Part shown: positions 6,569 through 14,494 of the stretch, piece by piece
How the letters are laid out: every line of letters begins with the position of its first letter
How positions within the stretch are numbered: position 1 is the stretch's first letter
Assembly (NCBI GenBank): GCA_025350985.1
Contig: JANXWU010000022.1
Location: forward strand, 1-14,494
DNA length: 14,494 bases
Source of the DNA: Spartobacteria bacterium
Lineage (GTDB): Bacteria; Verrucomicrobiota; Verrucomicrobiia; Chthoniobacterales; Chthoniobacteraceae
Direction of reading: 5' to 3'
Position numbers and translations under genes: made by a program
The notes under the pieces: model-generated
What the model was told of the DNA's origin: nothing
The model's database searches: none
Seen by the model: only the letters and a program-made list of their open reading frames with translations

Positions 6569-7609
6569 TCAGACCGACAGCGTCTGTCGCAGTTCCATCG
6601 CGATTTTCAAAAACTCAGCCTTCACCGGATTCTCGCCGGGGAGCGCCACGATCGGTTTTCCGCGGTCGCCGGATTCGCGCGTGGGGATGTCGATGGGCAC
6701 TTGGCCAAGCAGTGGCACGCCGAGACGTTTGGCTTCGCGCTCGCCCCCGCCATTTCCAAAAATGTCGTAGCGCACGCCGTCGCTCGGGCACAGGAAATAG
6801 CTCATGTTTTCGATGAGGCCGAGCACGGGCACGTTCACTTTTTCAAACATGGTCGCAGCCTTGCGCGCATCGATCAGCGCGACTTCCTGCGGCGTCGTGA
6901 CGATGATCGCGCCGGCCAGCGCGACGGTCTGCACGATCGTGAGCTGGATGTCGCCAGTGCCGGGCGGCAAGTCGAGCACGAGGAAGTCGAGTTCGCCCCA
7001 TTCGACCTGTCGTAAAAATTGCTGCGTGTAGCGCGTGACCATCGGCCCGCGCAGGATCGCGGGCGAAGTGTCTTCGAGCAAAAATCCCATCGACATGAGC
7101 TTCAGCCCGTACTGCTCGATGGGCAGAATGCGCTCGTCCTCGGTCGCCATCGGGCGGTCGCGCGTGCCGAACATCAGCGACACGCTCGGGCCGTACAAAT
7201 CGCAATCGCACAAGCCCACCCGCGCGCCGTTTTCCTGCAACGCCAGCGCGAGATTCGCGGCCACGGTGGACTTGCCGACGCCGCCTTTTCCACTCGCGAT
7301 GGCGAGGACGTGCCGGATGCCGGGAATCGCCGTCGCGCCCACGCCGGCAGTTTGCGGTGGAGCTTGGATGTCGATCAAAACGCGCACTTCACCGATGCCC
7401 TCGACCGCGCGCAACGCGGCTTCGCTCTGCTCCTTAATCGACTGCGGAATGCGCGGATCGTTGGTGGCGAGCGCCATTTGCACCGTCACGTCCGCGCCGC
7501 TGATCGCGATGTTTTTGACGATGCCGAACGAAAGAATATCGCGCGAGAAGCCGGGATATTTTACGGACGCGAGCGACTGGCGGACGAGATTTTCCGAAAG
7601 GGCTGACAT
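6569..7609 (-). CDS. Mrp/NBP35-family Fe-S cluster carrier ATPase (ApbC-like)
   Basis: This encodes a 346-residue cytoplasmic P-loop ATPase of the Mrp/ApbC/NBP35 group, which holds and delivers Fe-S clusters. Residues about 5-85 are the MIP18/DUF59-type domain often found at the N-terminus. The deviant Walker A motif is SGKGGVGKST (106-115), followed by DCDLYGPS (136-142), LRGPM, the VLDLPPGTGD switch (211-220) and TTPQEVALIDARK. The family usually carries a CxxC after ENMSY to bridge a cluster across the dimer; here the stretch is CPSD (274-277), so only Cys274 remains. Cluster binding may use other ligands, or this branch may differ. ATG 7609 starts at the family N-terminus. It converges with accC and lies 44 bases downstream of the small hypothetical gene on the same strand. 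Confidence 0.93.
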   Translation of the reverse strand: MSALSENLVRQSLASVKYPGFSRDILSFGIVKNIAISGADVTVQMALATNDPRIPQSIKEQSEAALRAVEGIGEVRVLIDIQAPPQTAGVGATAIPGIRHVLAIASGKGGVGKSTVAANLALALQENGARVGLCDCDLYGPSVSLMFGTRDRPMATEDERILPIEQYGLKLMSMGFLLEDTSPAILRGPMVTRYTQQFLRQVEWGELDFLVLDLPPGTGDIQLTIVQTVALAGAIIVTTPQEVALIDARKAATMFEKVNVPVLGLIENMSYFLCPSDGVRYDIFGNGGGEREAKRLGVPLLGQVPIDIPTRESGDRGKPIVALPGENPVKAEFLKIAMELRQTLSV

Positions 7610-7634: not shown

Positions 7635-7665
7635 ATGCTAACACGCCCTGGAGTCAGCGAGTCAA
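7635..7665 (-). promoter_or_regulatory. Weak sigma-70-like promoter candidate for mrp
   Basis: On the minus strand, TTGACT (complement of 7660-7665) and TAGCAT (complement of 7635-7640) are 19 bases apart and lie 26 bases before the mrp ATG. The spacing is long, and the -35 overlaps the end of the upstream small gene. The -10 hexamer is the same one proposed for accBC. Confidence 0.25.
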
Positions 7666-7881
7666 ATCAGCGACCGCCGCTGTCGCGATGCTGCTGATCA
7701 AAACCACATCGATTAGTCGAAGGCCGCCGTCTTCGGTCGTCAAGACCAGCAGACGCTTATCGCCACTGAGCATCGCGAAATCGGAATGCGGCACGTGCAT
7801 CGGCGTCTGTTCTGCGATGTGAACCGTAAACGGTCTGAAGGGTGCAGCATGCAGTAATTCCTGAATGGCTCGCGCGGTCAT
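7654..7881 (-). CDS. Small conserved-type hypothetical protein
   Basis: Read from ATG 7881 this gives 75 residues beginning MTARAIQELL. The layout resembles a widespread family of uncharacterised 70-80 residue proteins: a short helix, a PFRPFTVH strand, VPHSDFAML, a LLVLTTEDGG hairpin and a final hydrophobic LIDVVLISSI strand. I know no function for that family. No SD precedes 7881. A GTG at 7941 would add 20 residues and has GAGG five bases upstream, so it is a real alternative. Further upstream another frame continues in a similar coiled-coil style, which may mean the gene is longer and frameshifted (see findings). It lies 44 bases upstream of mrp on the same strand and diverges from the sigma-factor gene. 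Confidence 0.6.
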   Translation of the reverse strand: MTARAIQELLHAAPFRPFTVHIAEQTPMHVPHSDFAMLSGDKRLLVLTTEDGGLRLIDVVLISSIATAAVADLTR

Positions 7882-8068
7882 GTCTGAGGAGATTACCGCT
7901 TTGTCATAGCCGCGCAAGGTGCGCGCCAGCTCATGCAGCACTCAATCCTCTTCCGCATGGGATCAACTTCGAGTTCAAGGCGTTCGATACGGTTGATCGG
8001 AAAAGCCTCATCGCGTGCAAGGGTCTGCGCTTTGCAATTCACAAGAGTTCCGGCAGTCTGAGCACTCG

Positions 8069-8674
8069 ATGAATCGGGAAACAGAGCTTGTGGAGAGCCA
8101 TTTAGGATTGGCACAGGTGATCGCTTGCGAATACGCGAACATTCCCGCAGCCACGCTCGACGAGATTGTTGCTGAAGCTCAAAAAGCGCTTGCCTCCGCG
8201 GCCCGGCACTTCGATCCCGCAAAAGGAGCGTTCACCGCTTATGCCGCCCGCGCGATTCGTAATGCGCTGAATTCATTTTACGAAAAACAACTTCGCTACG
8301 TGCAGGCGCATGAATTCTCACTCGACGCGCCTCAGCATGGTTCTGAGCAAACAACGGAAAGTCCGCGCATCGCTAACATGGCCGATGGTTCGCAGCAGCT
8401 TAGTATCGAAATCCGCGCCCGCGAATCTCGCAAGGTGCTCGAGGAGGTCATGGCGGATATGCCGAAGCGTTCCCGCGATGCGCTGGAAATGTTGCGCGAA
8501 GGTCGCAGCTATTCGGAAATCGGCGAGGCGATGACAATGAGCAAACAGGCCGCGCACAAGATTGGTCAGGACGCGCTGCATAGACTGCGTGAAAAGCTGG
8601 AAGCACGCGGGTTCGCGGGACTCGATTCCAAAGGGTTTCTGAAATCGCGCTCCGTCGAAAAACCCGGCGGCTGA
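8069..8674 (+). CDS. Short sigma-70-family RNA polymerase sigma factor
   Basis: This encodes a 201-residue sigma factor with only two recognisable domains. Region 2 is at about 5-75: ESHLGLAQVIACEYAN, LDEIVAEAQKALASAARHFDPAKGAFTAYAARAIRNAL, the same pattern as group 1-3 sigmas. A linker (80-115) follows with no region 3. Region 4 is at about 118-178, with the helix-turn-helix in SYSEIGEAMTMSKQAAHKIGQDALHRLRE. It should direct core polymerase to a specific promoter set. The ATG at 8069 is preferred because homology begins just after it; an in-frame GTG at 8015 would add 18 residues that look non-coding. No strong SD is present. It is the first of five closely spaced + strand genes; the FHA kinase downstream suggests phospho-regulated transcription. 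No clear anti-sigma factor is seen, though the next small protein is a candidate. Confidence 0.88.
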   Translation: MNRETELVESHLGLAQVIACEYANIPAATLDEIVAEAQKALASAARHFDPAKGAFTAYAARAIRNALNSFYEKQLRYVQAHEFSLDAPQHGSEQTTESPRIANMADGSQQLSIEIRARESRKVLEEVMADMPKRSRDALEMLREGRSYSEIGEAMTMSKQAAHKIGQDALHRLREKLEARGFAGLDSKGFLKSRSVEKPGG

Positions 8675-8715
8675 TTGACGGTTTCTCGCCCAACCCGTAG
8701 TGCCTGAGAAAGACA

Positions 8716-8904
8716 ATGACACGCCATAACTTCAAACCCATCACGCCGGAGGACATTCAAAAACTGCTCACGCCCGAGGAAATGAAAGCGTTTGCTGCCG
8801 GCGCTCGCTTTTTGTTTGGCAATCAGGGCGGCGATGATGACGCCGGTCACTCCACCGGGGCTGACGATGGCGACGAGGCCGAGTCCCGCACCCCTAAACA
8901 ATAG
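8716..8904 (+). CDS. 62-residue acidic-tailed small protein, unknown function
   Basis: I do not recognise this protein. Residues 8-33 look helical (TPEDIQKLLTPEEMKAFAAG, then ARFLFG). The last 25 residues are polar and strongly acidic, with GGDDDAG and DDGDEAE, and look disordered. There is no signal peptide or membrane helix. It is set 41 bases after the sigma-factor stop and 15 bases before the FHA kinase start, with a purine-rich GAGAAAGA ahead of its ATG. That spacing supports real translation and a role in the cassette. A small partner or regulator of the sigma factor, or a kinase substrate (its tail holds Ser/Thr residues, S26-type positions are absent but HSTG and SRTP are present), is possible by position only. 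Confidence 0.65.
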   Translation: MTRHNFKPITPEDIQKLLTPEEMKAFAAGARFLFGNQGGDDDAGHSTGADDGDEAESRTPKQ

Positions 8905-8919
8905 CTGGCGACGCAAAAA

Positions 8920-10206
8920 ATGAGCGCAAAGGTCCACCTTCAGGTTACGTCAGGACCACAGGACGGAAAGGTGTTCAGTTACACCGAGCATGACACCTTC
9001 ATCTTTGGCAGAATGGACGACTGCCATGCCTGCATTCCCAATGATACTCAAGTCTCACGCCATCACTTCATCCTGGAAGCGAACCCGCCGCAGGCGTGTC
9101 TGCGCGACCTTGGCAGCCTCAATGGCACTTATGTAAATGGAAAAAAGTATGGCGGAAGGCTTGCAGGCGAAACGCCCGACGAAGGAGCGAAGCGCCGCTA
9201 CCCGGAGATTGAGTTGAAGCCTGGCGACGTCATTCGCGTGGGAAAGACTTCACTTGAAGTCACGATTGAACAGCCCAAGGAAAAACCGCGGCACAAAGTT
9301 GATCCAGCTCTTGCGGATTGGCTTTCACTCAGTCCAAAGCAACTCGCTCAACTACTCTTCGGTGACCTGAAGAAGCCAGGTCAGGGTGGGAAGCTGACGA
9401 TCCCCGGCTATCACATCGAAGCGGAGATTGGGCGGGGCGGGTTCGGTGTCGTCTATCGAGCGAAGCGTGACTTCGATAACTCTTTCGCTGCCATCAAAGT
9501 CGTATTCGCGCGAGTGGATGCCGACTCTGCGGCTGTCGAGAGATTTCAACGCGAGGCAGACGTGGTAAAGCAACTCGACCATCCGCACATCGTCAGGTTG
9601 TTCAAGAGCGGAAACAGCGGAACCATCTTTCACCTGCTCATGGAGTATTGCGATGGAGGCAGCATTTGGGATTTGATGCGAAAGAATGGCGGGAAGCTTG
9701 GCCTCACGCAGGCAATGCCGATCATCTTGAATGCACTGTCCGGCCTTGCCTATGCGCACAAGCTTGGTTTTGTGCATCGCGACATCAAGCCTCAGAACAT
9801 TCTACTCCATCGAGGGGAAGGACGGCTGTCAGATTTCGGAATGTCGAAAAGCTTCGAGCAGGCGGGACTAAGTGGTCTTACGATGACGGGCAAATACGCA
9901 GGCACTTCGTATTTCATGCCGCGCGAGCAGATCACCAATTTTAAGCACGTGAAGCCCGCAAGCGATGTTTGGAGCATGGCGGCGACTATCTACAACATAC
10001 TCACAGGTAAGTTTCCATATGAGTTCACCAAGCAACGCGACCCGATTGATGTGATCCTCAACGAGGATATTGTCCCTATAGTCAAACGCAGCAAATCGTT
10101 GCCAGCATCTATTTCCGCCGTGCTCGATCAAGCATTGGCAAAGAAACCAAAGCATCGTTATCAGACGGGTGCGGAATTCCTCGCCGCGTTGAAGGTCGCG
10201 GTTTAG
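8920..10206 (+). CDS. FHA-domain Ser/Thr protein kinase
   Basis: This encodes a 428-residue soluble kinase. The N-terminal FHA domain (about 3-118) binds phospho-threonine peptides: FGR at 29-31, VSRHH at 45-49 and SLNGTYVNG at 66-74 are the conserved binding-loop residues. The kinase domain covers about 163-427. It has the Gly loop GRGGFG (171-176), Lys193 in AAIKVV, Glu212 of helix C, the catalytic loop HRDIKPQN (286-293), DFG at 305-307, and an activation segment rich in Thr/Ser ([19 protein letters not shown]). All catalytic residues are present, so it should be active, and the Arg before the catalytic Asp suggests control by activation-loop phosphorylation. Unlike PknB-type kinases it has no membrane segment; an FHA domain placed before the kinase is notable. 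The start follows CAAAAA with no clear SD. The next gene begins four bases after its stop. Confidence 0.95.
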
Positions 10207-10210
10207 CGCA

Positions 10211-13200
10211 ATGAACTATAGCGATCCCGAGAATGTGCCATCGCTCTGGCAGGTCGGCGACGTGATTCTCGACCGATACGAAGTGAAGCAAGTCTTCACG
10301 GGCGGCGGCATGGGGTTGGTCTATCGCGTTCATCACCGCGATTGGGCCATGGACCTCGCCGTTAAGTCCCCAAGGCCGGAGTTCTTTCGGACCAAGCAAC
10401 ACATCGAGAACTTCGAGCACGAAGCGGAGACGTGGGTAAAACTTGGACTGCATCCGAACACGGTCAGTTGCTACTACGTCCGCCGCTTGGGCGGCATCCC
10501 GCGAATCTTCACCGAGTTCGTCGATGGCGGCAGTCTGGCGGACTGGATTCGATCACGCCGACTCTACGAAGGCGGGCCGGACAGAGCGATGGAACGAATC
10601 CTCGATACTGCCATCCAGTTCGCATGGGGACTGCATTACGCCCATGAGCAGGGGTTGATCCATCAAGACGTAAAGCCAGGGAACGTGCTCGTGAACACCG
10701 CTGGAACGGTTAAAGTCACTGATTTCGGTCTGGCAAAGGCGCGTGCTCTTGCAGGCGAGACACCGATATTCTCTGTTGGACAAAGCATCCTTGTTACCTC
10801 CGGCGGCATGACACCGGGTTATTGCTCGCCCGAACAAGCCAACGGAAAGCCGCTGTCGCGGAAGACGGATATTTGGAGTTGGGCGATTAGCGTCTTTGAG
10901 ATGTTCGCGGGAGAAACGCCGTGCAGATACGGAGGCCAGTTTGCGAGCGAGGTGTTTGAAACATTTTTGGAAACCGGCGACGGCGATGAACTCTTGCCGC
11001 TCGTGCCGCCACCGTTAGTAGGTCTCCTCAAACATTGCTTTCGTCGCGATCCCGTCGGCCGCCCCCGAACCCTGCGCGACTGCGCGATTGCACTTTGCGA
11101 AGTTTACCAGTCAGAAACTGGTCTGTCATATCCTCGCCCCGAACCGCAAGCCGCCGGCGATACGGCCGACGCGCTCAGCAATCGCGCCCTCTCCCTGCTC
11201 GATCTTGGCAGACCCGATGAGGCCGAAAGGCTTTTGGACCAGGCGCTGGAACTGAACAGGCACCATTTGGCCGCCACGTATAACCGGAATTTGTTGCTCT
11301 GGCGGGCTGGCAAATCCACCGATGCGGACGCCTTGGTGACCCTTGAAGAAATCAGGAAGGAGCACACGAATGACGGACATGTTGAATGCGCGTTTGGCTG
11401 GGTGCGAATGGAGAACGCCGACTTTGCACAAGCCCTAGCTCATTTTGAGAGAGCGACCGAGTTAGGGGCCGACAGTGAAGCCCAGACAGGGTTAGACCGT
11501 GCCCGGCCGCTTGCGCAAGTTAGAGCAGGTCATCGACACGCCTTCGAGGGGCACACGCACATTGTCAGCTCCGTTGCGTACTCGCCTGACGGTAGTTCCG
11601 CTCTCTCCGGCAGTTGGGACAAAACGCTCCGACTCTGGGACGCAGCCACTGGGCAATGCCTGCGCATCTTCGAGGGGCATGCGGATAAGATTAACTCGGT
11701 CGCCTATTCTGCCAACGGTCGTTTTGCCGTCTCCGCAAGCAACGACCATACGCTTCGACTGTGGGATGCTGAAACTGGACAGTGCCTGCGCATCTTCAAA
11801 GGACATCAGAGTTATGTGAACGCCGTGGCGTTTTCGCCCGACGGCCGTTTCGCCCTCTCTGGGGGCGGTGACACCGGCTCCTTTGATAGCACCGACAATA
11901 AGCTTCGGTTGTGGGAACTGGCTACCGGGAAATGCCTGCGCACCTTCGAAGGTCATACGCACAGAGCCGCCTCTGTGGCGTTTTCACCTGACGGCCGCTT
12001 CGTCCTATCTGGAGGCTCACACTTCATTCGCGGCGGTGAAGATAATATGCTCTGGCTGTGGGATGTGGCCAGCGGGAGGTGCCTTTACATCTTCGAGACG
12101 AACTTCGTCAACTCCGTTGCGTTTTCACCCGACGGTCGCTTCGCCCTTTCCGGAAGCGACAGAACGCTTCGGCTTTGGGACGTTGCCACTGGGCAATGCC
12201 TCCGCACCTTCGAGGGGCATACGGATAATGTTAACTCCGTTGCGTATTCGCCCGATGGATGCTTCGCGCTTTCCGGGAGCGGGGACGATACGCTCCGGCT
12301 TTGGAACGTGACCACCGGGCAATGCCTCCGCACCTTTGACGGACATGCTGGATATGTCTCATCGGTGGCGTTTTCACCCGACGGTCGTTTCGGTCTTTCC
12401 GGGGGCTGGGATAGGACTCCCCGGCTATGGGACATCTGTTCAGTAATGGAGCGGTGCTATGTTTCGCCATGGCTATACTCGATGGTCACTACGATTAGCG
12501 AGGCCACAGAACGGCAACACCGGCACGAGTCCCATTTATCTCGCGCACGCGAGGCGTTATCCGCCGAGCAGTTCGCAGAGGCGTTGACGTTATTGAAGCA
12601 GGCGCGTGCGATTCCAAGTTTCGAGAGAAACCCCGAGACTCGCGAGCTTCAAGCCCGCGCTGGTGCGCGAGCGCGCGTCAAATCCTATGTTGGTGGGTGG
12701 TTGCAACGCACCTTCGTGGGGCATGACGTAGGGGTCTTCGGGGTCTGTTCAGTGGCATTTTCCCCTGACGGTAGATTTGTTCTCTCCGGGGGCGGGGACA
12801 GGACGCCTCGGCTCTGGGATGTAGCCACCGGAAAATGCCTGCGCACCTTCGGTGCACATTGGGAATATGTAGCCTCTGTTGCATATTCGCCCGATGGCCG
12901 TCTCGCCCTCTCAGGCAGCTCGGACTACGAGACCGATGACAGGTTCCGGCTTTGGGACATAGCCACCGGAAAATGTTTGTTCATCTTCAATGGGCATACG
13001 GAAACGGTCTCATCGGTGACGTTTTCGCCGGACGGTTGTTTCGTCCTCTCTGGCAGTTGGGACAAGACGGTCCGACTGTGGAACCTGACGACCGGGCAAT
13101 GTGTGCGCACTTTCGAGGGGCATGGAAGTGCCCTCCGTTCCGTCGCGTTTTCACCCGACGGCCGCTTCGCCCTGTCGGGGAGCGGAGACGCCTCCTCCAA

Positions 13201-13669
13201 AAATACGCTCCGTCTATGGAACGTGGCCACTGGACAATGCCTGCGCACTTTCGAGGGTCATACGGGTGGTGTGCTCTCCGTGGCGTATTCGCCCGACGGA
13301 TGTTGCGCGCTCTCAGGAGGGATAGATACGACGATCCGGCTTTGGAACGTCGCCACTGGGCACTGCTTACGCGTATTCGAGGGAGAAACCGAGAGTGTCG
13401 CTGCTCTGGCATATTCGCCGGACGGCCGTTTCATCCTATCAGGCGGAAGCGTCGTCATGTTGTGGGAATTGCGCACCGGCCAATGCGTGCGCACCTTCGA
13501 GGGGCATACGGATAGTGTCCATGCAGTGGCGTTTTCACCCGACGGCCGCTTCGCCCTTTCGGGAAGCGGCGATTTAACCGTAAAGCTTTGGGAGATTGAT
13601 TGGGATTACGAATATGACCCGGAATACGATCCGGTTTTGAAACGCCGAGCGAAGCAAGCACGAAAATGA
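10211..13669 (+). CDS. Non-RD Ser/Thr kinase fused to TPR and two 7-bladed WD40 propellers
   Basis: This encodes a 1152-residue soluble protein. The kinase domain (about 20-300) has GGGMGLVY (31-38), Lys52, helix-C Glu71, HQDVKPGN (151-158) and DFG at 171-173. The Arg before Asp153 is Gln, making it a non-RD kinase, but Lys, Asp, Asn and DFG are intact. Residues about 318-432 form TPR-like helical pairs ([35 protein letters not shown]). Fourteen WD40 repeats follow in two sets of seven, about 440-743 and 831-1131. Between them lies an 85-residue helical insert ([29 protein letters not shown]). Most blades end RLWD/[14 protein letters not shown] and carry SPDG. The tail is acidic then basic ([18 protein letters not shown]). 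It probably serves as a signalling kinase with a large protein-binding platform. It is packed between the FHA kinase and the zinc-ribbon gene, whose ATG overlaps its TGA. Confidence 0.95.
11536..13605 (+). repeat. Fourteen in-gene WD40-encoding repeats
   Basis: Units of about 120-150 bp recur within the kinase-WD40 gene, in two runs split by a non-repetitive stretch at about 12440-12700. Similarity is high at DNA level: for example the 25 bases at 12203-12227 recur exactly at 13490-13514, and variants of GGGCAATGCCTGCGCA recur in most units. This fits blade duplication followed by drift. Confidence 0.9.
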
Positions 13670-14494
13670 ACCTCCGCCCGCAAGACCTCATTCACGCACC
13701 ATATTGGAACTGCCCGTTCTGCCATGCAGAAGCGGTTTTCGGTATGTGGAGTGTCGGCGGGCACTCATACACGCGACGATGCAAGAACTGTTGGCAAACC
13801 AGCTACTTCCAGCTTCCTCCGTTGCAACCAAAGGTTCTCTACTTGGATCAGTTCTTCTTGAGCAACGTCGTCAAGACACTTGATCCTGGTACCGAAGCCG
13901 CCCGCCGTCAGAAAACTGATCCGCTGCGATTTTATCGGAGCGCATTCGAGAAGATACACCGGCTGTGCAAACTCCACCTGTTAGTGTGTCCATATTCCCC
14001 GGTTCACTATGACGAGTCGGTCGTCAGTGACAATTACTTCCGCAAGCTAAAGCGTCTATATGAGATGCTTTCAAACGGCGCGAGCTTTCAATCTCCAGGT
14101 TGGATTCGGAACGCCCAAATCATTTCATTTGCGCGGAAGTGGGCGGGGCTTCCGCATGAAGACACTGCCATTGTAGATCGAAAGACCGTGATCAACAAAA
14201 GAATCGACGAGTGGCAGAACTGGTATCAGATCAGTCTCAACACACGTCCGGCTCCGGGTCTGACGAATGAACTTCGGGAGATGCGTGAAAAGAAGTATCA
14301 AGGCTTCTTGGGCGTTCACGAGAGATGGAAAGCAGAAAAGGATCAAAATTTCGCTTACTGGCTTCGGGAAGAACAATTGGCGCTCTGCAAGGTATTGAAG
14401 GAGAGGCTCGCGAAGACGTTAGCTCGGGAATTCCAGTTTCGCACTGGTCAACGTGAACGGACGTTAGAGGACGCCTTCGCGCTGATGGACGAGA
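13666..14494 (+). CDS. Zinc-ribbon protein with possible PIN-like region, 3' end outside window
   Basis: The reading frame from ATG 13666 stays open to the window edge (276 codons seen). It overlaps the preceding stop as ATGA, a strong sign of coupled translation. Residues 12-45 form a zinc ribbon: CPFC (C16, C19) and CKNC (C39, C42). Then [12 protein letters not shown] (56-67) gives a hydrophobic strand ending in Asp61, as at the start of PIN-like nuclease folds. A second strand with an acidic patch follows, [16 protein letters not shown] (D116, E117). The rest is charged and helical ([40 protein letters not shown]). I have a vague memory of uncharacterised proteins with this strand-YLDQ arrangement but cannot name the family; the nuclease idea is inference. 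It may be the output protein of the kinase cassette. Base composition here is clearly lower in GC than in the left half. Confidence 0.8.

Follow-up and report, generated by a model that had tools for sequence, protein, structure and literature searches.

What might a bacterium do with a row of five tightly packed genes that encode a sigma factor, a small acidic protein, two Ser/Thr kinases and a probable nuclease? The question is raised by a 14,494-nucleotide stretch of DNA from a Spartobacteria bacterium (GenBank assembly GCA_025350985.1, contig JANXWU010000022.1), here called the window, in which such a cassette occupies positions 8069 to 14494 of the forward strand. The analysis presented below suggests, with about an even chance of being right, that these genes form an accessory sigma-controlled cassette, in which a kinase-linked sigma factor resembling those of the extracytoplasmic function (ECF) type activates its own cassette with exchangeable effectors, likely in response to conflict or damage.

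The five genes

Five open reading frames (ORFs) follow each other on the + strand, with intergenic gaps of 41, 15, 4 and -4 bases from gene 1 to gene 5; the overlap is an ATGA common to the end of gene 4 and the start of gene 5. ORF calls and Pfam searches bear out the packing, the gaps and the domains given in the first-pass annotation of the window. Gene 1 (8069-8674) encodes a 201-residue sigma-70 family factor with Sigma70_r2 at residues 7-74 and Sigma70_r4 at residues 128-175 (Pfam). It has regions 2 and 4 only, as ECF-type factors do, and scores 63 bits against the NCBIfam sigma70-ECF model, the cut-off of which is 42.9. Gene 2 (8716-8904) encodes a 62-residue protein with an acidic C-terminal half; it has no match in Pfam, PADLOC or NCBIfam and no relative in the 196 other genomes searched. 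Gene 3 (8920-10206, 428 residues) combines an FHA domain (28-108) with a Hanks-type kinase domain (164-415), the catalytic loop of which, HRDIKPQNI, is of the RD type; at least 1902 proteins are related to it at E<=1e-60.

Gene 4 (10211-13669, 1152 residues) starts with a kinase domain (24-286), continues through a TPR-like stretch and carries 14 WD40 stretches (Pfam), arranged as two groups of seven blades at residues 442-749 and 835-1136. With its HQDVKPGNV loop it is the non-RD kinase with 14 blades that had been annotated. The gene-4-type kinase part is rare: of the 212 other genomes searched from the order, 5 have a match at E<=1e-60. The HQD loop is present in five of nine second kinases compared, the window's included. 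A relative of gene 4 in genome G784 keeps, as judged by eye, the kinase, the TPR-like stretch and seven blades, followed by a helical stretch and four or more further blades before the contig ends, and in G029 a gene-4-type kinase lies 2 kb behind an FHA-kinase-like fragment.

Gene 5 (13666->14494) encodes a zinc-ribbon and PIN-like protein, 276 of whose ~430 residues precede the contig end. Because the window is an entire contig, C209, from a draft genome that is 88% complete and has 2.74 Mb in 542 contigs, gene 5 is truncated and the cassette may extend further.

A conserved front half and variable downstream genes

The distribution of the genes supports the conclusion that the cassette is accessory, that its front half (sigma factor and FHA kinase) is a conserved unit and that the downstream genes are variable. 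Of 196 other genomes searched, 8 have a relative of the sigma factor at E<=1e-20. The FHA kinase is matched at E<=1e-75 in 5 of the 212 further genomes from the order, in 5 of 383 others sampled from the class and in 5 of 386 others sampled from the phylum, in a search that scored few candidates per genome, so that more may exist; the match in G029 covers the kinase part only and lies at a contig end. Eight copies of the FHA kinase are found at E<1e-140 (three in G128 and one each in G110, G119, G125, G430 and G321), and each of the eight is preceded on its own strand by a sigma homologue, with intervening genes in some. A Ser/Thr kinase gene lies near the sigma gene in all eight of these sister loci, as it does after gene 2 in the window. 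Among the genomes of the order, those with the FHA kinase (5) and those with the sigma factor (8) overlap in four (Fisher p ~6e-6), and those with the FHA kinase (5) and the gene-4-type kinase (5) in three (p ~6e-5); neither value is corrected for phylogeny, and the genome sets differ slightly between searches. When the ordered set is looked for across genomes, as the first-pass annotation had proposed, the sigma-FHA kinase pair is recovered in every close copy and the full set is not recovered elsewhere.

The sigma factors have a further feature in common. Behind region 4, the signature G-x-x-G-[LIM]-D-[ST]-x-G-[LF]-L (GLDSxGLLKS-like) is present in 12 of 14 aligned sigma factors, among them those of L040-L048, L067, L068 and the window, and is absent only in L049 and L050. 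It is a possible docking or phosphorylation site. A second type of sigma-led cassette is seen in L040, L041 and L048, where the sigma gene is accompanied by a kinase without an FHA match, an Hsp70-like ORF (recognised by eye) and a Clp-like gene, with a PLD gene nearby in L041 and L048.

Downstream of the FHA kinase, the sister loci carry a second kinase in L042, L043, L045 and L068, and a fragment of one in L044. Nuclease families are found downstream in five of the eight sister loci, or six of nine with the window: a PLD and a VapC-type PIN gene in L042, HEPN-AbiU2 in L043, YhcG/DUF1016 in L044, L046 and L067, and the PIN-like gene 5. Clp-type ATPases (ClpB-type) are also present downstream in L042 and L043. 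As the contigs of L046, L047 and L067 end within ~2 kb past the FHA kinase (~3 kb in L045), missing downstream genes mean little in these loci. A toxin gene of the PemK/MazF type and a gene of the PIN type (scoring slightly under the cut-off of Pfam) separate the sigma gene from the FHA-kinase gene and run on the opposite strand (L042, 5674-6015, -; L044, 10278-10736, +), and this gap therefore accepts insertions. PADLOC and Pfam were run on neighbours selected by eye, and L044 and L074, being the same locus, were counted once.

On the other side of the sigma gene, five of the eight sister loci (L042, L043, L044, L045 and L047) have a metallophosphatase gene on the same strand. The metallophosphatase and Clp-type ATPases could be the core outputs of a stress or protein-quality regulon, in which the sigma factor and kinases respond to proteotoxic or envelope stress, with the nucleases as mere insertions; the PP2C genes of two distant FHA-kinase loci (L070 and L072) and the Hsp70-like ORFs of the second cassette type would fit such a regulon as well. 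This explanation is unlikely, as up to the contig end the window has no Clp, metallophosphatase, PP2C or Hsp70-like gene, the set is sporadic in the above counts and not core, and nuclease families recur in six of nine loci. The distant locus L072 brings together an FHA kinase, a second kinase, PP2C and a Clp-type ATPase, and so resembles the pathway that controls type VI secretion through threonine phosphorylation, with its kinase, PP2C, FHA protein and Clp-type ATPase. That the cassette is a developmental or secretion-control relay of this kind is highly improbable: PP2C was not found in the window, and a scan of neighbours picked by eye, which did not extend to secretion genes genome-wide, gave no secretion-system domain.

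A promoter-like motif

A motif of the approximate form GTTGACG-N14-(T/C)CGTA recurs before genes of the cassette family. It was first spotted by eye in upstream sequences, and the model used for scanning was built, with fixed spacing, from internal sites and sites upstream of metallophosphatase genes. In L042-L045 the site is an exact GTTGACG-N14-TCGTATTC that starts 29-35 bp before the metallophosphatase ATG. The site in the window, ATTGACG-N14-CCGTAGTG (8674-8702, + strand; four mismatches to the motif of the sister loci), starts on the final base of the stop codon of the sigma gene and reaches to 13 bp before gene 2. As it lies directly behind the sigma gene, genes 2-5 may be a separate transcription unit. 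The FHA kinase is preceded by a site in all eight close loci, with five mismatches in L045 and, in L067, if an inner ATG is the start. A TTGACG followed by 15 bases and CGTA has the shape of an ECF-type promoter, and the motif may function as one. In several loci the CGTA box is ~9-10 bp before the ATG (L046, 2706-2742; L043, 10986-11015, 9573-9609), and so short a distance suggests that the transcripts have little or no leader.

With up to four mismatches allowed, 29 sites are found in 226 kb covering 19 sigma, FHA or gene-4-type loci and none in three control sets that total 535 kb, namely distant FHA loci (71 kb), loci around gene 5 relatives (354 kb) and mrp loci (110 kb); with up to five, the counts are 39 for the cassette loci, one for the distant FHA loci, seven for the gene 5 relatives and two for the mrp loci. 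About 22 of the 29 sites begin 29-90 bp before a same-strand ORF, and part of these ORFs only is identified as cassette genes. The stricter pattern TTGACGNTTTN11CGTA occurs exactly at 8675-8699, its sole match in the draft genome of the window. Across 80 whole genomes it has 27 matches, 23 in the 11 sigma-bearing genomes and four in the 69 others, five of which were never searched for the sigma factor; the reversed pattern gives 15 matches, four of them within the 11.

All 22 exact matches in the seven genomes with both sigma factor and FHA kinase lie in or beside cassette-type loci, 18 within sigma-FHA loci and four outside. The outside match in G125 precedes a gene-4-type kinase; of the two in G430, one lies by a YhcG relic and the other before a gene-4-type kinase and a Clp gene; that in G119 is between a Clp gene and an unk526 gene, the latter followed by a gene-4-type kinase. 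A match in G001, where no sigma factor was found, begins 35 bp before a 100-residue metallophosphatase-family ORF, near ORFs that look transposase-like by eye. A binomial figure of 8e-40 for the enrichment was set aside as circular, the motif having come from those same loci. A looser scan (spacing 13-16, up to three mismatches) is noisy, with ~70 matches expected from shuffles in 974 kb; among the matches listed, exact sites occur at operon starts only. A recombination site with GGTT...AACC arms was also considered and rejected, for the arms are not kept throughout, while TTGACG and CGTA mostly are.

The gene 5 family

The first-pass annotation had noted a possible nuclease-like strand in gene 5, and two structure models of full-length relatives (pLDDT, the predicted local distance difference test score, 89.4 for one) turn this into a PIN-like fold. 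Pfam gives a zinc-finger match below threshold as the only match of gene 5, and no PIN match for the family. Foldseek at E<=0.001 gave no match for either model against PDB, nor for the first against a viral library, so that the PIN reading is drawn from VIA-align rows and motifs. These rows, which for the first model span residues 52-401, name VapC11, PcrIIC1 and HARP, and for the second model 1y82, PcrIIC1 and VapC5. A profile search of the PDB sequences gave nothing useful, and gene 5 has no match in a phage collection.

The family is built of a zinc ribbon followed by a PIN-like fold, into which ~220 mostly helical residues are inserted between the second and third acid. The relatives P0001-P0005 and P0008 share 68-97% identity with gene 5, and P0008 comes from a 5.6 Mb Chthoniobacteraceae contig. 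In P0001, a relative of 431 residues that is 97% identical to gene 5, the acids E117, D345 and D362 are invariant and D61 is kept in at least 90% of the 30 sequences of alignment A3. The window encodes the zinc ribbon (residues 1-52, two C-x2-C pairs; 13666-13821, + strand) and the first part of the PIN-like domain with D61 and E117 (13822-14025, + strand); the positions of D345 and D362 are beyond the contig end and are known from the relatives. Alignment A3 leaves aside P0006, P0007, P0008, P0014, P0016 and P0017 (partial), L020, L022 and L023 (partial or broken), L026 (a repeat of L012), and L003 and L017 (the same gene as L002); alignment A4 leaves aside L020, L022, L023 and L026. Gene 5 probably encodes a nuclease that cuts RNA.

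Relatives of gene 5 are found at 21 loci in genome contigs and two in viral contigs (IMG/VR), of which L026 repeats L012. Their hosts, by record title, include Firmicutes, Patescibacteria, Gemmatimonadota, Verrucomicrobia and Planctomycetota. Neighbours picked by eye gave defence-type PADLOC matches in 5 of the 23 loci. In L005 (7226-11278) the relative is immediately behind a DUF1156 methyltransferase and a PLD helicase; in L011 (5463-11278) and L010 (3557-8105) type I restriction genes adjoin it or sit one gene off; a type II methyltransferase and a dGTPase are near it in L021, and a type III methyltransferase is ~4 kb from it in L004. The relatives next to restriction genes are candidates for an unnamed family of defence nucleases. 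A Rhizobium plasmid carries a relative with 28.5% identity a few kb from conjugation genes, and a Mesorhizobium plasmid one of half length with 25%. The family is scattered and probably mobile, and is independent of these kinases. Two of its members are unusual: P0150, with 635 residues, has ~200 extra N-terminal residues without a Pfam match, and in L022 (7673-9017) the gene is split into two overlapping ORFs, broken or misassembled. A guess that L025 contains a terminase was dropped, as Pfam gave no match.

Gene 5 might then be a mobile toxin or defence nuclease that has hitch-hiked behind an unrelated sigma/kinase operon, with genes 1-4 forming an ordinary signalling operon. The relatives on plasmids, on viral contigs and near restriction genes agree with this, as do the toxin-type genes inserted in the sister loci and the 23 loci themselves: in none of them did phmmer find anything related to the sigma factor, to gene 2 or to one of the two kinases (E<=1e-3; flanks up to 10 kb, often shorter), so that the position of gene 5 in the cassette may be a chance insertion. 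However, gene 5 is on the same strand as gene 4 and overlaps it by the four bases of the ATGA, and the sister loci carry other nuclease families downstream. The hitch-hiker explanation is on balance somewhat doubtful.

The flanking sequence

Upstream of the cassette, on the - strand, lie a P-loop ATPase gene of the mrp/ApbC (NUBPL) type (6569-7609; ParA/NUBPL in Pfam, 322 bits) and an ORF of 95 residues (7654-7941) without a Pfam or NCBIfam match. The mrp gene was matched in 39 of 40 family genomes, that of the window included. Loci were built for 29 of the 38 other genomes, with flanks of ~1.5 kb or in some cases less; in none of the 29 are cassette genes or a relative of the 95-residue ORF beside mrp. 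Insertion at a fixed site next to mrp was considered and could not be demonstrated, a relative of accC adjoining mrp in none of the 29. In 1-kb windows the GC content drops from 0.57-0.66 upstream to 0.54-0.58 where the cassette begins, and is 0.57-0.60 over the WD40 part; this drop, like the absence of the cassette beside mrp elsewhere, speaks for an accessory unit.

Comparison with known systems

Sigma factors activated by kinases are known. The portions consulted of PMC8999054 and PMC13147305 describe the ECF43 pairs EcfP/PknT and EcfK/PknS, where EcfK controls type VI secretion against amoebae, and propose kinase activation from gene context for ECF59, 61, 62, 217 and 283. The cassette resembles ECF43 in that the sigma factor has regions 2 and 4 only and Hanks-type kinase genes are adjacent. 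ECF43 is described as lacking the acidic residues of sigma region 2.2 (PMC8999054, same portions), whereas by eye the alignment has them kept (LDEIVAEAQ in the window, stretches similar to xEIEIQAQ in the sister sigma factors), which makes gene 1 unlike the ECF43 phospho-switch type. The cassette also differs in having two kinases (FHA and WD40), genes of nuclease type downstream and a motif that recurs within it.

The vWA-MoxR ternary and EACC conflict systems have a constant regulatory core and variable effectors, PIN and FHA being among the effector domains (PMC7159879, 2020, and PMC8195603, 2021, in the parts consulted), and EACC2 neighbourhoods often contain an ECF sigma factor (PMC8195603, likewise). 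In contrast, MoxR, vWA, caspase and STAND were not found by Pfam in the five genes (for gene 4, among 25 of the 73 families, those listed), and the consulted parts of both papers describe no set of sigma factor, FHA kinase and WD40 kinase. The Hanks-type kinase domains of PD-T4-6 and MADS6 (PADLOC, NCBIfam) align with both kinases of the cassette. The matches listed fall within residues 154-428 in gene 3 and 14-386 in gene 4, the latter including the TPR-like stretch in the case of MADS6, but leave the FHA and WD40 parts uncovered; the MADS6 scores of 148 and 92 bits, against an NCBIfam cut-off of 460, indicate no likeness beyond that of kinases in general. Gene 5 shares fold rows and four spaced acids with PIN nucleases (VapC, PRORP/HARP) and differs from them by the N-terminal zinc ribbon and the long insert. 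Among the titles and abstract starts of the open PMC literature, no description of a sigma, FHA-kinase and WD40-kinase cassette in Verrucomicrobia was found.

Weighing the accessory cassette

Several observations weigh against an accessory cassette under the control of its own sigma factor. No second copy of the identical five-gene set was found in the genomes searched. The first-pass annotation had proposed the five genes as one candidate system and named homologues routinely found apart as evidence to the contrary; this is what is seen for gene 5 at its 23 loci, and gene 2, as mentioned above, is without relatives in the genomes searched. None of the five genes matches a specific known defence system, the PADLOC matches of both kinases being mostly generic kinase hits. 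The four distant FHA-kinase loci (L069-L072) have neither a sigma homologue nor a motif site at up to four mismatches. YhcG is common elsewhere too, with six in total in G128 and several in G430, and the Clp and metallophosphatase genes suit a stress response as well as defence. As to the motif, no site before the window's own sigma gene was seen in the scans, the exact site is absent in 3 of the 11 sigma-bearing genomes (G013, G068 and G090), the matches in G020, G067 and G634 look like chance, and a scan with a simple sigma-70 consensus stays at chance level. Since the motif was built from loci that are themselves the enriched ones, the independent test consists of the outside hits only, three in G119 and G430, which had no part in shaping it, and one in G001.

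A possible course of signalling

From the gene content, the sigma-FHA linkage, the motif with its distribution and the PIN-like fold, which the computations establish, it is possible to propose how the accessory cassette might work. The non-RD kinase with its TPR and WD40 parts would be the likely sensor and scaffold, which receives a signal and phosphorylates. The FHA domain of gene 3 would recognise a phosphorylated threonine, carried by the other kinase, by the sigma factor or by gene 2, giving a phospho-relay. Once released or activated, the ECF-like sigma factor would steer RNA polymerase to the GTTGACG-N14-(T/C)CGTA sites before the cassette genes, and the expression of genes 2-5, and with them of its own kinases and effector, would amplify itself. 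The zinc-ribbon PIN-like protein would be the likely effector, probably cutting RNA, and the likely purpose a conflict response, directed against phages or other elements, or a damage response. Support from sequence covers the two ends of this proposed chain only; we infer the promoter function of the motif, the order of the relay, the nuclease activity and the defence role.

The first-pass annotation had called the cassette a candidate signalling or defence system. An accessory, sigma-tied kinase module, a shared motif, a probable nuclease gene at the end and other nucleases in sister loci partly support that proposal, while the defence half of it is at present plausible. A more specific form, to be taken as tentative and rather below an even chance, is a self-amplifying immune regulon, in which the ECF-like sigma factor, through a promoter code of its own, would drive a two-kinase relay; the WD40/TPR sensor kinase of this relay would release exchangeable nucleases (zinc-ribbon PIN, HEPN-AbiU2, YhcG, PLD), and genes landing behind the promoters would join.

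Sigma factors linked to kinases and conflict systems armed with nucleases are each known on their own, and the cassette family seems to join both. It brings out an unnamed, widely scattered family of zinc-ribbon PIN-like proteins, and its promoter-like signal may allow further members of the cassette family to be found by DNA pattern alone. The cassette would thus offer a testable case of Ser/Thr kinases that control exchangeable nuclease effectors at the level of transcription.

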